DNA of 47,429 nt, taken from positions 1 through 47,429 of IMG/VR virus record IMGVR_UViG_3300031673_000093; one strand, given 5' to 3'. Of this stretch, positions 9,840 through 47,429 are shown in pieces. The position numbers and the translations under genes are program-made. Under the pieces are notes generated by a model. That model was not told where the DNA came from, did not search any database, and saw nothing but the letters and a program-made list of their open reading frames with translations. How positions within the stretch are numbered: the stretch's first letter is position 1; each line of letters opens with the position of its first letter. This stretch comes from a virus.

Positions 9840-12800
9840 ATGGATAACTTTGTAAATTTGCACATTCATTCAACTTACTCCTTTCAAGATGGATTAGGTT
9901 TGCCTAAACAATACATTCAGCGATGTAAAGAAATTGGTCAACCGGCTATTGCAGTAACAGACCATGGAAATATCTCAGCACACTTTAAGTGGTATGAAGA
10001 GTGTATAGAAAATAATATAAAACCAATACTTGGTTGTGAGTTTTATGTTAAACCTGCCAATGCAGTTAATGGTCGCAAGCGATATCATATTACAGTTCTT
10101 GCCAGAAATAGTAAAGGATATCGTAATCTTTTAAAATTAGTTACAGAAAGTTGGAAGGAAGAAAACTTTAGTTACAAACCACTTATAACAACCAAGGATC
10201 TTATTAAATTACAAAAGGGATTGATTGTTCTTAGTGGTTGCTGTTCAGGAAAGGTTTCCAAGTTACTTGAATCAAATAATTTTCAAGTTGCTGAAGAAGA
10301 ATTAAAATTTCTCAACAGCAGCATTGATAATTTTTATATTGAAATAATGCCTCTGTCATTTGAGCCGGCAAAAAGGACAATTCCTATCCTTTACAATTTA
10401 GCAAAGAAATTAAATATTCCAATGGTTGCTACAATGGATTGCCACTATGTAACAAAAGACCAATCTCTTTATCAGGAAATTCTTTTGTGCATACAAAGCA
10501 ATGACCAAATGAACAATCCAAAAAGATGGAAGTTTGACCAGAATGATTTTTATTTAAAAACTCGAGAAGAGATGAAACAGTCCTTTCAAAAAGTTGCTCC
10601 CGGATTAGATTTTACAGAAGCTCTTGATAACACAGTCAAGATTTCAGAAATGATTGGTTTTAAATTTCCTACTGCTTCACCAATTTCTTTTCCTATTCCA
10701 GAAAAAGAGAAGAAGGATAAATTGTATCAAATGTGTATTCTGGGAATGAAAAAAAGAGGATTTGTAGGAAATGAAGTGTATGAGAAAAGAATGAAGTATG
10801 AATTTGATTTAATTGTTAAAAAAGAATTTATTGATTACTTCTTAATTTTTACAGACCTTGTTCGTTGGGCTAAAGACAATAACATTCTTGTGGGTCCTGC
10901 AAGAGGATCTTCAGCAGGAAGTTTGGTCTGTTATCTATTAAGAATCACAGAAGTTGATCCAATTGTTCATGACTTAATGTTTGAAAGATTTATTGATATT
11001 AACAGAGAAGACCTTCCTGATATTGATGTTGATTTTGAAGACAGAAAACGACCTCTGATAAAAAGATATCTTGAAAACAGATATGGAAAAGATAAAGTGG
11101 GTCAGTTAGCAACATTTTCTACTTTCAAAGGAAAAAGTATTATAGGTGATTTTGGGAGAATATATAATTTACCATATGTAGTAGAAACAAAACTTAAATC
11201 AATTATAATCGAACGATCTGGAGGAGATTCAAGAGCTTCTTTTACACTTGAAGATACTTTCAAGCAATTCGATTTAGCAAAACAATATCTGAAAGAGTAT
11301 CCATTCCTTTCTCATGCAAAAGGATTTGAAGGACAATTACGCAATATGTCAAGTCATGCTTCAGGTATAATTGTTGCTAATGAACCACTTACAAATTTCT
11401 GTGCAGTATATCAGCAAAGAGGAGAAACAGTTATTTCTCTTGATTATGAATCTGCTAATAAATTAGGTTTTGTTAAGCTTGATATTCTTGGTCTTAACAC
11501 TCTTACTTCTGTTGCCAAAGCTCTTGATTTAATTAAAGAACGAACTGGTAAAGAAATTGATGTTTATAATTTACCTCTTAATGATCCAAAAGTATATGAA
11601 GGATTTAAAGATCCTAAGAAATTATTCGGGATATTTCAATTTGATGGCCAATCTGTAAATCAAGTTTGTAGACAAATTGCTCCTGAAACATTTGAAGAAT
11701 TATCTGCTATCAATGCTCTTTCTCGCCCCGGACCAATGCATGGTCTGGATCTTGAACTTAATGAACCTATAACCTCTGTTTATATAGCAAGGAAGAAGAG
11801 TAAGATTCCTTGGAAGACAGCTCATCCTCTTTTAAAAGACATAACCAAAAACACTCAAGGTGTAATAATTTATCAGGAACAAGTTATGAGAACAATGAGA
11901 GAAGTTGGAGGTATGTCTTGGAAAGACACAGCTCAAATACGAAAGTTAATTAGCCGGTCAATGGGAGTAGAAAGGTTTAATGATTTTAAAGTTAAGTTCT
12001 CAGAAGGAGCAAAGAAAAAAGGTTTGACTAATACTGAAATTGATAACATTTGGTCAGCTATGTGCACATTTGGTTCGTGGGCTTTCAATAAATCCCATTC
12101 TGTTTCTTATTCTATTATTTCTTATTGGACAATGTGGCTTAAAATTTACTATCCTATTGAATATTATGTAGCAATGACAAGCACAATGTTAAGTGAAGAT
12201 AAAATACGCAAAGTGATTAAAGAATATCTCCGAGAAGGTTATGAACTTTTACCTATTGATATTAACAAAAGTAAAGAATCATTCTCAATTGATGGAAAGA
12301 ATTTACGTCTCGGTTTTACTCAAATAAAAAGCATTGGTAAATTAGTATCAGAGAAAATTATCACTGGTCAACCTTATAAAAACATCGATGATTTTGAACA
12401 CAGAGTTAAAATGGGAAAGAAAGCAATTAATTTATTAAGCAAAATGGGAGCATTTGATTCAATAGGTGGCATCACAAAAGTTATAAGAACTCTTTTCGGA
12501 GATGAAATTGAGAAAAAATACGAAGATACAATTACCTTTGAAGAAAAGTTAAAAGTTTGTCCATTGGCAGTTAACTTTAATATAATTGAAAAGTGGGAAA
12601 AGTTTATAAAAAAGAATATCAAATGGAGAATTTCAAAGATCGAACAAGTAAATTCAAGAAATGAAACTGAAACTATAATGGGAATAGTTCATGATAAAAA
12701 CTTAAAAGACAAAGTTGAGGAAGCTCTGACTCGTGGAAAAGTTCCTCCACCAATCAAAAATGGTCAATCAAAATACTGTAACTTTGTGTTAGAGGATGAT

Positions 12801-12977
12801 ACTGATTTTGTAACTTGTAGAATTTCTCCACAAAACTTTCAGAGACTTCATAAACTTATTTTTGAAGAAATTGATAATGATGATGTAATTTTAGTAAGAG
12901 GACGAATGGGTGAAGGAATAAGAATGTTTTTTGTGAATCAGATAATAAATTTAAGCAAAATGAAAAAAAGAATATGA
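9840..12977 (+). CDS. dnaE: DNA polymerase III alpha subunit (family C replicative polymerase)
   Basis: A 1045-residue protein, slightly shorter than bacterial DnaE (about 1160). The N-terminal PHP domain shows VNLHIHSTYSFQDG (about 5-18) and VTDHGN (about 39-44). The palm has ILVGPARGSSAGSLVCYLL (about 350-368) and PDIDVDFEDRKR (about 392-403), where the acidic residues bind catalytic metal. GIFQFDGQSV, SRPGPM and GVIIYQEQVMRTMREVGG follow, matching the fingers. The C-terminal ~200 residues are shorter than in host enzymes, so the beta-clamp and tau contacts may differ. It replicates the phage genome. No helicase or primase gene is seen, so host ones are probably used. Confidence 0.95.
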   Translation: MDNFVNLHIHSTYSFQDGLGLPKQYIQRCKEIGQPAIAVTDHGNISAHFKWYEECIENNIKPILGCEFYVKPANAVNGRKRYHITVLARNSKGYRNLLKLVTESWKEENFSYKPLITTKDLIKLQKGLIVLSGCCSGKVSKLLESNNFQVAEEELKFLNSSIDNFYIEIMPLSFEPAKRTIPILYNLAKKLNIPMVATMDCHYVTKDQSLYQEILLCIQSNDQMNNPKRWKFDQNDFYLKTREEMKQSFQKVAPGLDFTEALDNTVKISEMIGFKFPTASPISFPIPEKEKKDKLYQMCILGMKKRGFVGNEVYEKRMKYEFDLIVKKEFIDYFLIFTDLVRWAKDNNILVGPARGSSAGSLVCYLLRITEVDPIVHDLMFERFIDINREDLPDIDVDFEDRKRPLIKRYLENRYGKDKVGQLATFSTFKGKSIIGDFGRIYNLPYVVETKLKSIIIERSGGDSRASFTLEDTFKQFDLAKQYLKEYPFLSHAKGFEGQLRNMSSHASGIIVANEPLTNFCAVYQQRGETVISLDYESANKLGFVKLDILGLNTLTSVAKALDLIKERTGKEIDVYNLPLNDPKVYEGFKDPKKLFGIFQFDGQSVNQVCRQIAPETFEELSAINALSRPGPMHGLDLELNEPITSVYIARKKSKIPWKTAHPLLKDITKNTQGVIIYQEQVMRTMREVGGMSWKDTAQIRKLISRSMGVERFNDFKVKFSEGAKKKGLTNTEIDNIWSAMCTFGSWAFNKSHSVSYSIISYWTMWLKIYYPIEYYVAMTSTMLSEDKIRKVIKEYLREGYELLPIDINKSKESFSIDGKNLRLGFTQIKSIGKLVSEKIITGQPYKNIDDFEHRVKMGKKAINLLSKMGAFDSIGGITKVIRTLFGDEIEKKYEDTITFEEKLKVCPLAVNFNIIEKWEKFIKKNIKWRISKIEQVNSRNETETIMGIVHDKNLKDKVEEALTRGKVPPPIKNGQSKYCNFVLEDDTDFVTCRISPQNFQRLHKLIFEEIDNDDVILVRGRMGEGIRMFFVNQIINLSKMKKRI

Positions 12978-39230: not shown

Positions 39231-39241
39231 TTCGACCATTT
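39231..39241 (-). promoter_or_regulatory. AAATGGTCGAA motif, reverse strand
   Basis: Variant copy with one mismatch (T for A), ending 28 bp before the scaffold-like ATG at 39202. Confidence 0.4.
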
Positions 39242-42353: not shown

Positions 42354-43721
42354 TTATAATTCACCAAATGGATTAATGGGATCAAACTGTGGCTCTTGCT
42401 CTCTCTTTTCCTCCTGAATATCCACTCTGTCTTCATACGCTCTCTTATTCCCTTGTGGATTCAATAATAGATCTTTTACTCCTAGAGCTAACATCCTGAT
42501 AGCATCTGCAGCATGGGATGACCAGTCATGGACAGGATGCTGCTTAAATTCTTGTCTCTTTTCATCATACTCTTTGTGATAATTCATAAGAGCATCTATT
42601 CCCTGCTTGCATTTATTCTTGTCAAACCAGCACCTATTGAATATCCTTCTTGCTGCATCAATTCCTTCTTCTAATGGGAAATTGGGAACAACTTGAAAAT
42701 TAATACCTAACTTCCTTGCTGTCTCTAATCGAGATTTGCCTGTTGTTAACTCTCTAACCTTGATATCATGGGGAGCATAATGTCTGTCATATAAATACTT
42801 TCTGTCTTGCATTACCTTAACATAATGAACTAAACTTTCTCCTGACGACTCATAATAATCAATCAATCTGAAAGTATCACCATGAACCTGAAAGAACCAG
42901 ATTGCCATTGAATCTCCTATTCCAAGATCCCAAGCAGTATTCACTTTTAAATTATAATCATAGGGAACATCTGTAACTCTTCCCTCTGTAATTGCTCTCT
43001 GCAAATATCTCCCATAATAAGAACCTGACATTGCTCCTTCAAAAGAACAATAATACTCTTGCTGTATAAGATCTTCATCCATTCCTTCCTTCCTTTCTTT
43101 CTCAACATCTTCTGGTGTTATTACTGGAGATCCATCTGGCCTCTTAGTATTATCAACAGTTAGCAATTCACAGAACCAATCTGAATTAAGTTGAGCCATA
43201 TTATATAATTCATATCCATGATTGTGTCCTCTCGGAGTGTATAAGAACAATGCCCATCCTCCATTTTCCCTCAGAATTGGTCTTATGAAATCCCATGCTT
43301 GAGGATTCTGCAGAGCATATTCTGAGAATACTGCCCCTACAGGATTTGTTCCAACAATTGCATCAATGTTATCTGTCCCTATTATTTGAAATAAAGAACT
43401 GTTCTTAAATCTTATTTTCATCTCTGATTCATTCGGTTTCCCAGCAATCAAATCTCTTGGAAAGTGGTCAAGGAATCTCATTCCACTTTTGTCAATACCA
43501 TCCCAGATAATCTTCTTCCCTTGAGAATATGTTGGCATAAAGTAATAATAAATCCCTTTCTTTTGCCACATCCTCTTAATCATGTAATTCAAGCCGGTCT
43601 TATCTTTACCTGCTCTTCTGTGCCAGACACATACTCCTCTCTTGATTCCTGAATCTAAAGCATCTAAAACTGGTAGTTGGTATTGTCTCGGGATAAACTT
43701 GTAAGGTATAGTAATCTGCAT
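42354..43721 (-). CDS. Terminase large subunit
   Basis: A 455-residue protein. The Walker A-like motif is VWHRRAGKDKT (about 32-42), Walker B AVFSEYA (about 130-136), and the coupling motif LYTPRGHNHG. The C-terminal nuclease has NTAWDLGIGDSMAIWFF (with a conserved metal-binding Asp) and HAADAIRML (near 410). It packages DNA into the prohead and cuts it. The start lies 12 bp after the 3' arm of the structured RNA in the gap. Confidence 0.92.
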   Translation of the reverse strand: MQITIPYKFIPRQYQLPVLDALDSGIKRGVCVWHRRAGKDKTGLNYMIKRMWQKKGIYYYFMPTYSQGKKIIWDGIDKSGMRFLDHFPRDLIAGKPNESEMKIRFKNSSLFQIIGTDNIDAIVGTNPVGAVFSEYALQNPQAWDFIRPILRENGGWALFLYTPRGHNHGYELYNMAQLNSDWFCELLTVDNTKRPDGSPVITPEDVEKERKEGMDEDLIQQEYYCSFEGAMSGSYYGRYLQRAITEGRVTDVPYDYNLKVNTAWDLGIGDSMAIWFFQVHGDTFRLIDYYESSGESLVHYVKVMQDRKYLYDRHYAPHDIKVRELTTGKSRLETARKLGINFQVVPNFPLEEGIDAARRIFNRCWFDKNKCKQGIDALMNYHKEYDEKRQEFKQHPVHDWSSHAADAIRMLALGVKDLLLNPQGNKRAYEDRVDIQEEKREQEPQFDPINPFGEL

Positions 43722-45637: not shown

Positions 45638-45646
45638 ACTAACTTA

Positions 45647-45675
45647 ATTATCGTTCTTATCAAGAAAAAAGAAAA
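45647..45675 (-). promoter_or_regulatory. Candidate promoter of the initiator operon
   Basis: Reverse-strand GATAAT (45647-45652) as -10, a weak TTTTCT at 17-bp distance (45670-45675), and TTGACC a further 2 bp upstream. The upstream sequence resembles the forward promoter at 46004-46032. Expected start is near 45640, at operator box 1. Confidence 0.5.
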
Positions 45676-45683
45676 GGGGTCAA

Positions 45684-45696
45684 ACAGTTGATAACT
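45684..45696. promoter_or_regulatory. Operator box 2: ACAGTTGATAACT
   Basis: Exact copy of the dyad AGTT-gat-AACT with ACA in front. It lies just upstream of the initiator promoter. Confidence 0.6.
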
Positions 45697-45705
45697 TTTC
45701 TTGGC

Positions 45706-45924
45706 TTATAATTGTATTTTTTTAGAATTGTCTCCACAATGCCATCCAAATTCCCAGCCACAATGACAAATATTCTCTTTTTTGTGAGTTAAACATTTTT
45801 GACAAGACAGAAACAAGTCTCTTCCTGGATACTGGTTTAAGTGAATTTTAAAAGGAATAAGTTCGCAACCTTTTTCTTCAGAATGGAAATGTTTTGATTT
45901 CTGATTCATTTGAAAATCTGTCAC
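45706..45924 (-). CDS. Small Cys/His-rich protein
   Basis: A 72-residue protein with a GTG start at 45924; an ATG at 45909 is an alternative. It carries Cys and His in the order CEL, then LFLSCQKCLTHKK and NICHCGWEFGWHCGDN, probably binding two metal ions. The promoter at 45943-45971 gives a very short leader. It is the first gene of the divergent region. A regulator or host-takeover protein is plausible. Confidence 0.6.
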   Translation of the reverse strand: MTDFQMNQKSKHFHSEEKGCELIPFKIHLNQYPGRDLFLSCQKCLTHKKENICHCGWEFGWHCGDNSKKIQL

Positions 45925-45942
45925 ACATCTATGTCTGTATTA

Positions 45943-45971
45943 ATTATAGCTTTTCCAAGAAGAAGAGTCAA
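45943..45971 (-). promoter_or_regulatory. Sigma-70-type promoter of the Cys/His-rich gene
   Basis: TTGACT (reverse, 45966-45971), exactly 17 bp, then TATAAT (45943-45948): near-perfect consensus. Operator box 3 lies 9 bp upstream of the -35. Expected start is near 45936. Confidence 0.8.
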
Positions 45972-45980
45972 GAGTGCTAA

Positions 45981-45993
45981 ACAGTTGATAACT
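45981..45993. promoter_or_regulatory. Operator box 3: ACAGTTGATAACT
   Basis: Exact copy, between the divergent promoters, 9 bp from the reverse -35 and 10 bp from the -35-like region of the first forward promoter. It may coordinate both. Confidence 0.6.
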
Positions 45994-46003
45994 TTTTGAC
46001 TCC

Positions 46004-46032
46004 TTTTCTTTTTTCTGAAAATGGAGTATAAT
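46004..46032 (+). promoter_or_regulatory. Candidate forward promoter 1
   Basis: TATAAT at 46027-46032, with weak TTTTCT (46004-46009) at 17 bp and TTGACT (45996-46001) at 25 bp. Box 4 begins 8 bp after the -10, over the start. Confidence 0.55.
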
Positions 46033-46040
46033 GAAAGCAG

Positions 46041-46138: not shown

Positions 46139-46149
46139 AAAGGTCGAAG
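46139..46149 (+). promoter_or_regulatory. AAAGGTCGAAG motif upstream of the KOW-like gene
   Basis: Exact copy, ending 28 bp before the ATG at 46178, downstream of forward promoter 2. If that promoter is used, the motif lies in the leader RNA, which leaves open whether it acts in DNA or RNA. Confidence 0.45.
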
Positions 46150-46177: not shown

Positions 46178-46876
46178 ATGAAATTTAAAGTTGGAGACAG
46201 GGTGAGATTGATTGAAAAGGACAATTGGTGTGATGGATTAACTGTAGGAGACCCTTATACTGTTTCACAAACAGGTAGTGGTATTCGGATAAAAGAGCAG
46301 TCAAGATTGGCTAATATGTCTGCACCAGGTTATTGGATTAGTGAAGATTGTTTTGAATTTATTTCTTCCTCTCCTCATATCCGTAAAGTAATAGTAAAAG
46401 TTCCTACTAAAGAAGATTGGATAGCAGTGGTTAAGCAGGCAATAAAAGATGGATGTGAAAAATGGGGTGAAAGTGGAGAACAATGGGACAGCCATAGAGA
46501 AAAAACATGTATTCGGATAGATGAAGATGGATCTCTCCATTATGGAACAAAAGGAGTGTCTTATGGACAGACCGACTATCTAAATTATCTTCGTCTCACC
46601 ACACAAGAATATCTTAATAAATTTAAACAAACCTCTGACGAAAAACCAAATAAGCAGAGGAAAATTAAAATGAAACTCAATATAATGATGAAAAAAATCT
46701 TTGATAAGGACATAAAAACTCTTATCAAGGCAGATTTTATTGACGGTGATTTAGAGTTCACCGAAACAGGGAAAGAAGCATTATTTGCTGTTCTCTTTGA
46801 ATTAAACAAAGAAGCATTAGTTGTACTTGCTCAAGAAAAAATCCAAGAGGAAGAGAAAGAAAGAGGACGAAGATAA
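46178..46876 (+). CDS. KOW/SH3-like early protein (allele B)
   Basis: A 232-residue protein. The N-terminus (MKFKVGDRVRLIEKDNW, then GDPYTVS) is a small SH3-like barrel as in KOW or ribosomal proteins. The middle has VPTKEDWIAVVKQAIKDGCEKW and ENCI-like strands; the end is a helical domain that differs from the left-end allele. It is the first gene after forward promoter 2 and the operators, so it is expressed early. Its function is unknown. About the first two-thirds are shared between alleles. Confidence 0.65.
   Translation: MKFKVGDRVRLIEKDNWCDGLTVGDPYTVSQTGSGIRIKEQSRLANMSAPGYWISEDCFEFISSSPHIRKVIVKVPTKEDWIAVVKQAIKDGCEKWGESGEQWDSHREKTCIRIDEDGSLHYGTKGVSYGQTDYLNYLRLTTQEYLNKFKQTSDEKPNKQRKIKMKLNIMMKKIFDKDIKTLIKADFIDGDLEFTETGKEALFAVLFELNKEALVVLAQEKIQEEEKERGRR
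46573..46664. repeat. 92-bp direct repeat, right copy
   Basis: Identical to 1-92. It falls inside the KOW-like gene and marks where the two alleles start to differ. Confidence 0.9.
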
Positions 46877-46881
46877 AAAAT

Positions 46882-47346
46882 ATGCCTACAGGAGTATATA
46901 AAAGAAACAAAAAAGAATTGAGACGATTAAAGAAACAAGCATTTCAGAAAGGATGTATTCCTTGGAACAAAGACAAAAAATTGACAGAATATCCTCAAAT
47001 AGGTTTCCAAAAAGGACAATCTTCATGGAATAGAGATAGACATTGGTCAAAAAAGACCAGAAGAAAAATGGGAAAAGCCAAAGAAGGACTAAGAGATGAA
47101 GCAACAAATCGTTGGAAAGGAGATAAAGCTGGAAAAGGACCAATGCACGGATGGGTTTATAGACACAAAGGAAAACCCAAAGTTTGTGAGCATTGTGGAA
47201 TAACTTGTAAAGAAAGAAAGTTAGCTTGGGCAAATAAAGACCATAAATACAGAAGAAAGTTAGAGGATTATATGTCTCTTTGTTATCCTTGTCATAAAAA
47301 GTACGATTTAAAAAGGTCGAAGAATAATAAAAAATTAAATAGATAA
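46882..47346 (+). CDS. HNH homing endonuclease with NUMOD3-like motifs
   Basis: A 154-residue protein. The N-terminal half has repeated FQKGCIPWNKDK and FQKGQSSWNRDRHWSKKT motifs, then RRKMGKAKEG, as in NUMOD3 DNA-binding modules. The C-terminal HNH part has VCEHCGITCKERKLAWANKDH and LEDYMSLCYPCHKKYD, with the two zinc-type Cys pairs and the N-x-D-H centre. It occurs only in the right-hand allele and lies 5 bp after the KOW-like stop, so it is a mobile insertion. Confidence 0.85.
   Translation: MPTGVYKRNKKELRRLKKQAFQKGCIPWNKDKKLTEYPQIGFQKGQSSWNRDRHWSKKTRRKMGKAKEGLRDEATNRWKGDKAGKGPMHGWVYRHKGKPKVCEHCGITCKERKLAWANKDHKYRRKLEDYMSLCYPCHKKYDLKRSKNNKKLNR
47312..47322 (+). promoter_or_regulatory. AAAGGTCGAAG motif in the right-hand allele
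   Basis: It overlaps the end of the HNH gene and stands exactly 41 bp before the ParB-like ATG at 47353, as the motif at 300 does before 341, although the bases between are different. Confidence 0.5.
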
Positions 47347-47352
47347 ACTATC

Positions 47353-47429
47353 ATGAAAATAAAAGAAATTCCAATAGATAAAATAAAGATCTATCAGAAC
47401 ATTCGATCAAAACAAAAGGATGTTGCTAA
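47353..47429 (+). CDS. 5' end of the ParB-like gene, second copy, truncated by the window
   Basis: The first 25 codons of the ParB-like gene at 341, identical over 77 bp to the end of the window. It is the same gene seen after going round the circle, not a duplication. It starts exactly at the ATG, where the alleles rejoin. Confidence 0.8.
   Translation, partial: MKIKEIPIDKIKIYQNIRSKQKDVA

Follow-up and report, generated by a model that had tools for sequence, protein, structure and literature searches.

Free-standing phage endonucleases home by conversion, in which donor sequence replaces the DNA flanking the cut (PMC2988022; PMC12724721), and nuclease genes are often found at the borders of phage genetic exchange (PMC10448857). 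On the assembly side, strain variants form bubbles in phage graph components, as described for Phables (PMC10563150), and contigs from metaSPAdes and MEGAHIT end in an overlap of maxK, as described for COBRA (PMC10914622). The locus that we analyzed had features of each of these systems. Like the T4 mob genes and the I-HmuI-like genes of Skunavirus phages, it contained a small intergenic HNH gene that was present in one form of the locus and absent from the other, beside diverged sequence. Unlike those genes, its 154-aa product, a putative nuclease, matched no HNH profile in Pfam or NCBIfam, and in our own reading of the alignment a D seemed to replace the usual middle N. As in the exchange-border cases, a nuclease gene was located at a segment that differed between close relatives, but here the difference was found within one assembled population and not between isolates. 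Finally, as with the strain bubbles, a circular phage showed two alternative paths and an exact k-mer end overlap; in contrast to those bubbles, both paths were kept in one public contig.

The window is the whole of IMG/VR virus record IMGVR_UViG_3300031673_000093, a metagenome-assembled phage contig of 47,429 nt. Two genes identified the record as a tailed phage: one was terminase-like (42354-43721; PHROG 2, E=1.6e-31), and the other encoded a DnaE-type DNA polymerase (9840-12977; PHROG 405). Searches for RNA families and tRNAs found none. The first-pass annotation had reported that the ends of the contig overlap in two places, and both matches were exact: positions 1-92 (segment R1) were identical to 46573-46664, and positions 341-417 (segment R2) were identical to 47353-47429. 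Because both repeats were cut by the contig ends, these lengths are lower bounds (at least 92 and at least 77 bp). Of the 30-mers in the record, 111 were duplicated, and every one of them came from the two end pairs (63 and 48, respectively). No other exact repeat of at least 30 nt was thus present in the 47,429 bases, which excluded a chance origin of the overlaps. The sequences between the repeats differed, as had also been claimed, and the divergence began immediately inside both repeat pairs, leaving a spacer of 248 nt in allele A (93-340) and one of 688 nt in allele B (46665-47352).

All features of the locus were on the plus strand. The part of the SH3/KOW-like gene common to both paths extended from 46178 to 46664 (162 codons plus 1 nt), and R1 was its 3' part. 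On path A, the gene continued into tail A (in-frame ATG at 98, stop codon at 296-298), and a 42-nt leader then led directly to a gene for a 262-aa ParB N-terminal-domain protein (341-1129; PF02195, E=8e-10, and ParB-like PHROGs), whose first 77 nt were R2. On path B, the same gene ended in a diverged tail (46665-46876) and was followed by the HNH gene (46882-47346) and then by the second copy of the parB start (47353-47429), at which the contig stopped. The frame was open through both closures, giving the expected products of 230 aa via A and 232 aa via B; the 230-aa protein is a prediction that links the shared KOW-like part, at one end of the contig, to tail A at the other. The parB leaders were of equal length in the two alleles, and the leader motif AAAGGTCGAAG was found at the same distance in both, with 40 nt from AAGGTCGAAG to the parB ATG. 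In allele B, this motif fell within the HNH coding sequence. Thus, the HNH gene sat between the tail stop codon and the parB leader, with its last codons overlapping the leader.

A k=77 de Bruijn graph was built from the two implied circles (positions 1-46572 and 418-47429), which had the sizes that had been proposed, 46572 and 47012 bp. The k value was inferred from the right overlap. The graph contained two branch vertices and three unitigs, namely, a common unitig (341-46664), unitig A (16-417), and unitig B (46588-47429), the last of which ended at the final base of the contig. Hence, both the end overlaps and the pair of branch vertices that characterize a circular-mapping genome with a strain bubble were present. 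Walking from A through the common unitig to B rebuilt the contig exactly at its right end and left it 15 bases short at its left end. The suggestion that the overlap reflected an assembler k-mer stop therefore fitted the right end (77 bp) but did not explain the 15 extra bases at the left end (92 bp).

The contig as written holds both copies of the locus, and this would also be the case if both resided on one molecule, either a linear genome whose terminal repeats were unequal or a dimer of ~93 kb with alternating alleles. We regard such a molecule as very improbable because coincidence would have to place its ends precisely one k-mer inside parB, whereas the two-circle graph accounted exactly for the right end. 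To our knowledge, no phage carries terminal repeats that are identical on both flanks but different in the middle. We infer that the two copies represent two strains rather than one molecule. It is highly probable that the record derives from one tailed-phage genome that assembled as a circle, with at least two co-existing close strains caught by the assembler. Strain A would carry the KOW-like gene with tail A and then parB, and strain B would carry the KOW-like gene with tail B, the HNH nuclease gene, and then parB. The assembler would have come in via A, gone once round the shared 46 kb, and gone out via B, halting where parB begins, on a k-mer that it had used before.

A distant relative, L084 (IMGVR_UViG_3300021406_000019; 42.7 kb), was reached via its HNH gene and was judged complete from an exact 127-bp end overlap. 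This genome encoded a 139-aa protein in which a VGDRV-type N-terminus was fused to the same C-terminal tail domain (tail B versus the L084 tail, phmmer E=1e-6; 0 of 5000 shuffles). A ParB gene (PF02195, E=1.6e-22) was located 36 nt after the tail gene with no HNH gene between them, and the HNH gene of L084 was found elsewhere in that genome. This order, KOW-like/tail gene followed by ParB gene, matched the window only if the window's ends were joined via A, and it provided independent support for closure. Together with the k=77 graph, the L084 gene order made the proposal of a circular genome with two alternative alleles well supported. The HNH gene, in turn, was present in B and absent both from A and from between the syntenic genes of L084, and such presence and absence at homologous positions between conserved flanking sequences is the pattern expected of a free-standing homing endonuclease. 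With L084 as the one outgroup, the comparison suggests that the HNH gene was a newcomer at the locus, the direction of change being gain.

Allele B might instead have come from a different phage whose identity to this one was confined to stretches of 92 and 77 bases and which was joined to it as an assembly chimera, and the visible identity around the A/B difference does amount to only those bases. We consider a chimera improbable. A donor so similar at both flanks would practically be a strain of the same phage, and the KOW frame continued into a homologous tail B with the same parB and the same leader length, which indicated that B was allelic and not random.

The two tails (66 aa in A and 68 aa in B) were 32% identical over 44 residues, and their DNA was 61.6% identical over the aligned bases. 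Their protein alignment score was reached by 0 of 5000 shuffles, and the tails are diverged homologues. A third protein of the KOW-like/tail build was encoded by L112, a 44.8-kb contig of a genome labelled as Patescibacteria, and an in-frame ATG opened all four known tails (positions 98 and 46670 in the window, 8710 in L084, and the tail in L112). The tail was a small C-terminal domain with an initial in-frame ATG, joined to VGDRV-type N-termini in phages and in one bacterial-bin contig; it might be translated separately, and no Pfam family was found for it. As for the rest of the protein, the description of the gene as KOW-like came from the resemblance of its short VGDRV-type N-terminus: a Pfam search yielded no match to a KOW profile, and the model of the protein, built from two sequences, had a low-confidence fold (pLDDT 43.5).

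Peptide-pattern searches of viral contigs for the KOW-like gene, ParB, tail A, and tail B returned no close relatives, and an exact 24-mer of R1 was not found in viral contigs, so these searches, from which near-identical records may have been withheld, yielded no close relative carrying either allele alone. Phage records searched at the DNA and protein levels with the KOW-like gene and tails gave no matches, and the tail profile, used as a pattern, gave none in genome contigs. A tail search of 380 genomes labelled as Patescibacteria returned one fusion protein, that on L112. A tail match in L064 was rejected as a chance match because it lay in a GC-rich, unrelated ORF.

The sharp borders of the A/B difference and the occurrence of both forms within one record would also fit a switchable locus, in which site-specific recombination, or recombination by duplication and excision, turns A into B and back within a single lineage. 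However, no inverted or direct repeats bounded A or B except the overlaps themselves, the only nearby inverted repeat (45644-46035) was outside the locus, and neither tail had a second copy elsewhere in the record. Such switching is therefore most unlikely.

Two short motifs were also noted. The motif (A)AGGTCGAAG was located at 301-310, 1167-1176, 46140-46149, and 47313-47322 and on the minus strand near 39237, in each case ~33-40 nt upstream of a start codon. Five of the six GGTCGAA sites in the record were within the upstream windows tested, and the motif is possibly a promoter or leader element. The motif (A/G)ACAGTTGATAACT occurred four times in the intergenic region that separates divergent blocks of genes (45683, 45980, 46040, and 46115), and two of the four copies were inside a 56-nt imperfect inverted repeat (45644-45699 and 45980-46035). 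These copies are iteron- or operator-like.

The HNH superfamily is defined by a beta-beta-alpha metal core with a conserved His, and members of this class have zinc-type cysteines. In an alignment of the window HNH protein and 13 relatives, residues H89, C102, D120, H121, C134, C137, and H138 were invariant and C105 was nearly so; the common motif was W-A-N-K-D-H-K-Y ... C-x2-C-H. The C-terminal half of the protein was well modelled (residues 81-150, pLDDT block means of 82-96). The best structural matches of the model were Gme HNH (Z 5.8), ZRANB3 HNH (Z 5.7), and phage GVE2 HNH (Z 5.0), all of them modest. Using tblastn, we found a phage gene annotated as an HNH endonuclease (E=5e-6), and the protein also matched PHROG 4160 (function unknown; E=7e-4). 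With the HNH profile as query, a sequence search of the PDB returned nothing, and the HNH relative in L084 had only a weak match to PF01844 (E=0.047). The conserved His, the zinc-type cysteines, and the predicted HNH-like fold place the 154-aa protein in the HNH superfamily, as judged from alignment and model. Four relatives were found in bacterial genomes, all of them in Patescibacteria assemblies, which is a hint, and no more, that Patescibacteria host the window phage. The genomic contexts of the HNH family were varied (L108, L113, and L083-L098), as expected of a mobile gene, and several were in Patescibacteria assemblies.

The first-pass annotation had ascribed the A/B difference to homing with co-conversion of the adjacent tail. 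Support was obtained for the HNH domain and for the homology of the diverged tails; homing and co-conversion themselves are plausible readings, as are the nuclease activity of the protein and the direction of transfer. We put the chances slightly above even that the HNH protein is a free-standing homing endonuclease and that A and B came to differ by nuclease-driven conversion between two conserved anchors, which would be the end of the KOW-like part and the start of parB. A diverged tail beside an HNH gene fits co-conversion and fits plain modular recombination equally well, and ordinary mosaic recombination would account for the locus as a whole nearly as well as homing. In a mosaic exchange between related phages, the KOW-parB segment would have been swapped with the HNH gene as a passenger, without nuclease action, and the difference stops at the border of a domain on one side and at the parB start codon on the other, as in modular exchange.

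The ends of ten other viral records (32-43 kb), which came from our HNH and terminase searches, bear on this choice; as they were not a random sample, they give no rate of two-allele ends. Exact end overlaps of 127 bp were found in two records and of 114 bp in one, and the ends of G009 overlapped with a single mismatch (SNP). The ends of G008 (L138, 1-1132; L139, 41175-42309) were two alleles of a GroEL C-terminus with 80% DNA identity that closed with 127 exact bases. The ends of G007 (L136, 1-611; L137, 38425-39035) shared 611 bp at 99.7% and then diverged, with scattered short repeats, and are possibly a repeat-rich variable locus. Two-allele contig ends therefore recur beyond this record, which supports the two-strain reading. 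They also arise without an HNH gene at the junction, as G008 demonstrated, a result that favors mosaic exchange and weakens the claim of homing. On the other hand, the only gene gained in B was an apparently intact nuclease of a kind usually spread by homing, and the different position of the HNH gene in L084 was the behavior of a mobile gene. We rate mosaic exchange without nuclease action as a serious possibility, somewhat short of an even chance. In G008, moreover, the left overlap (78) was shorter than the apparent k (127), indicating that left overlaps are not reliable evidence, and a reading of the 92-bp overlap as 77 plus 15 bases, pointing to a further variant at 46572, was dropped for this reason. 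Starting from nuclease-driven conversion, one could further suppose that the HNH gene mobilizes, besides itself, an alternative C-terminal domain for the early gene next to it, in a module swap under nuclease drive at a domain border that would be the shared in-frame ATG; we consider this unlikely.

The biology of the locus is familiar and of a known kind, and its practical value is mainly as an example of a circular virus with a polymorphic locus. Because the ends carry both alleles, there is no exact terminal repeat, and a complete circle would pass as linear. A public viral contig can thus carry one allele of a segregating locus at each end. Contigs of this type reveal, without reads, polymorphic loci of uncultivated phage populations, and a screen for them would be a cheap way to list nuclease and module polymorphisms.
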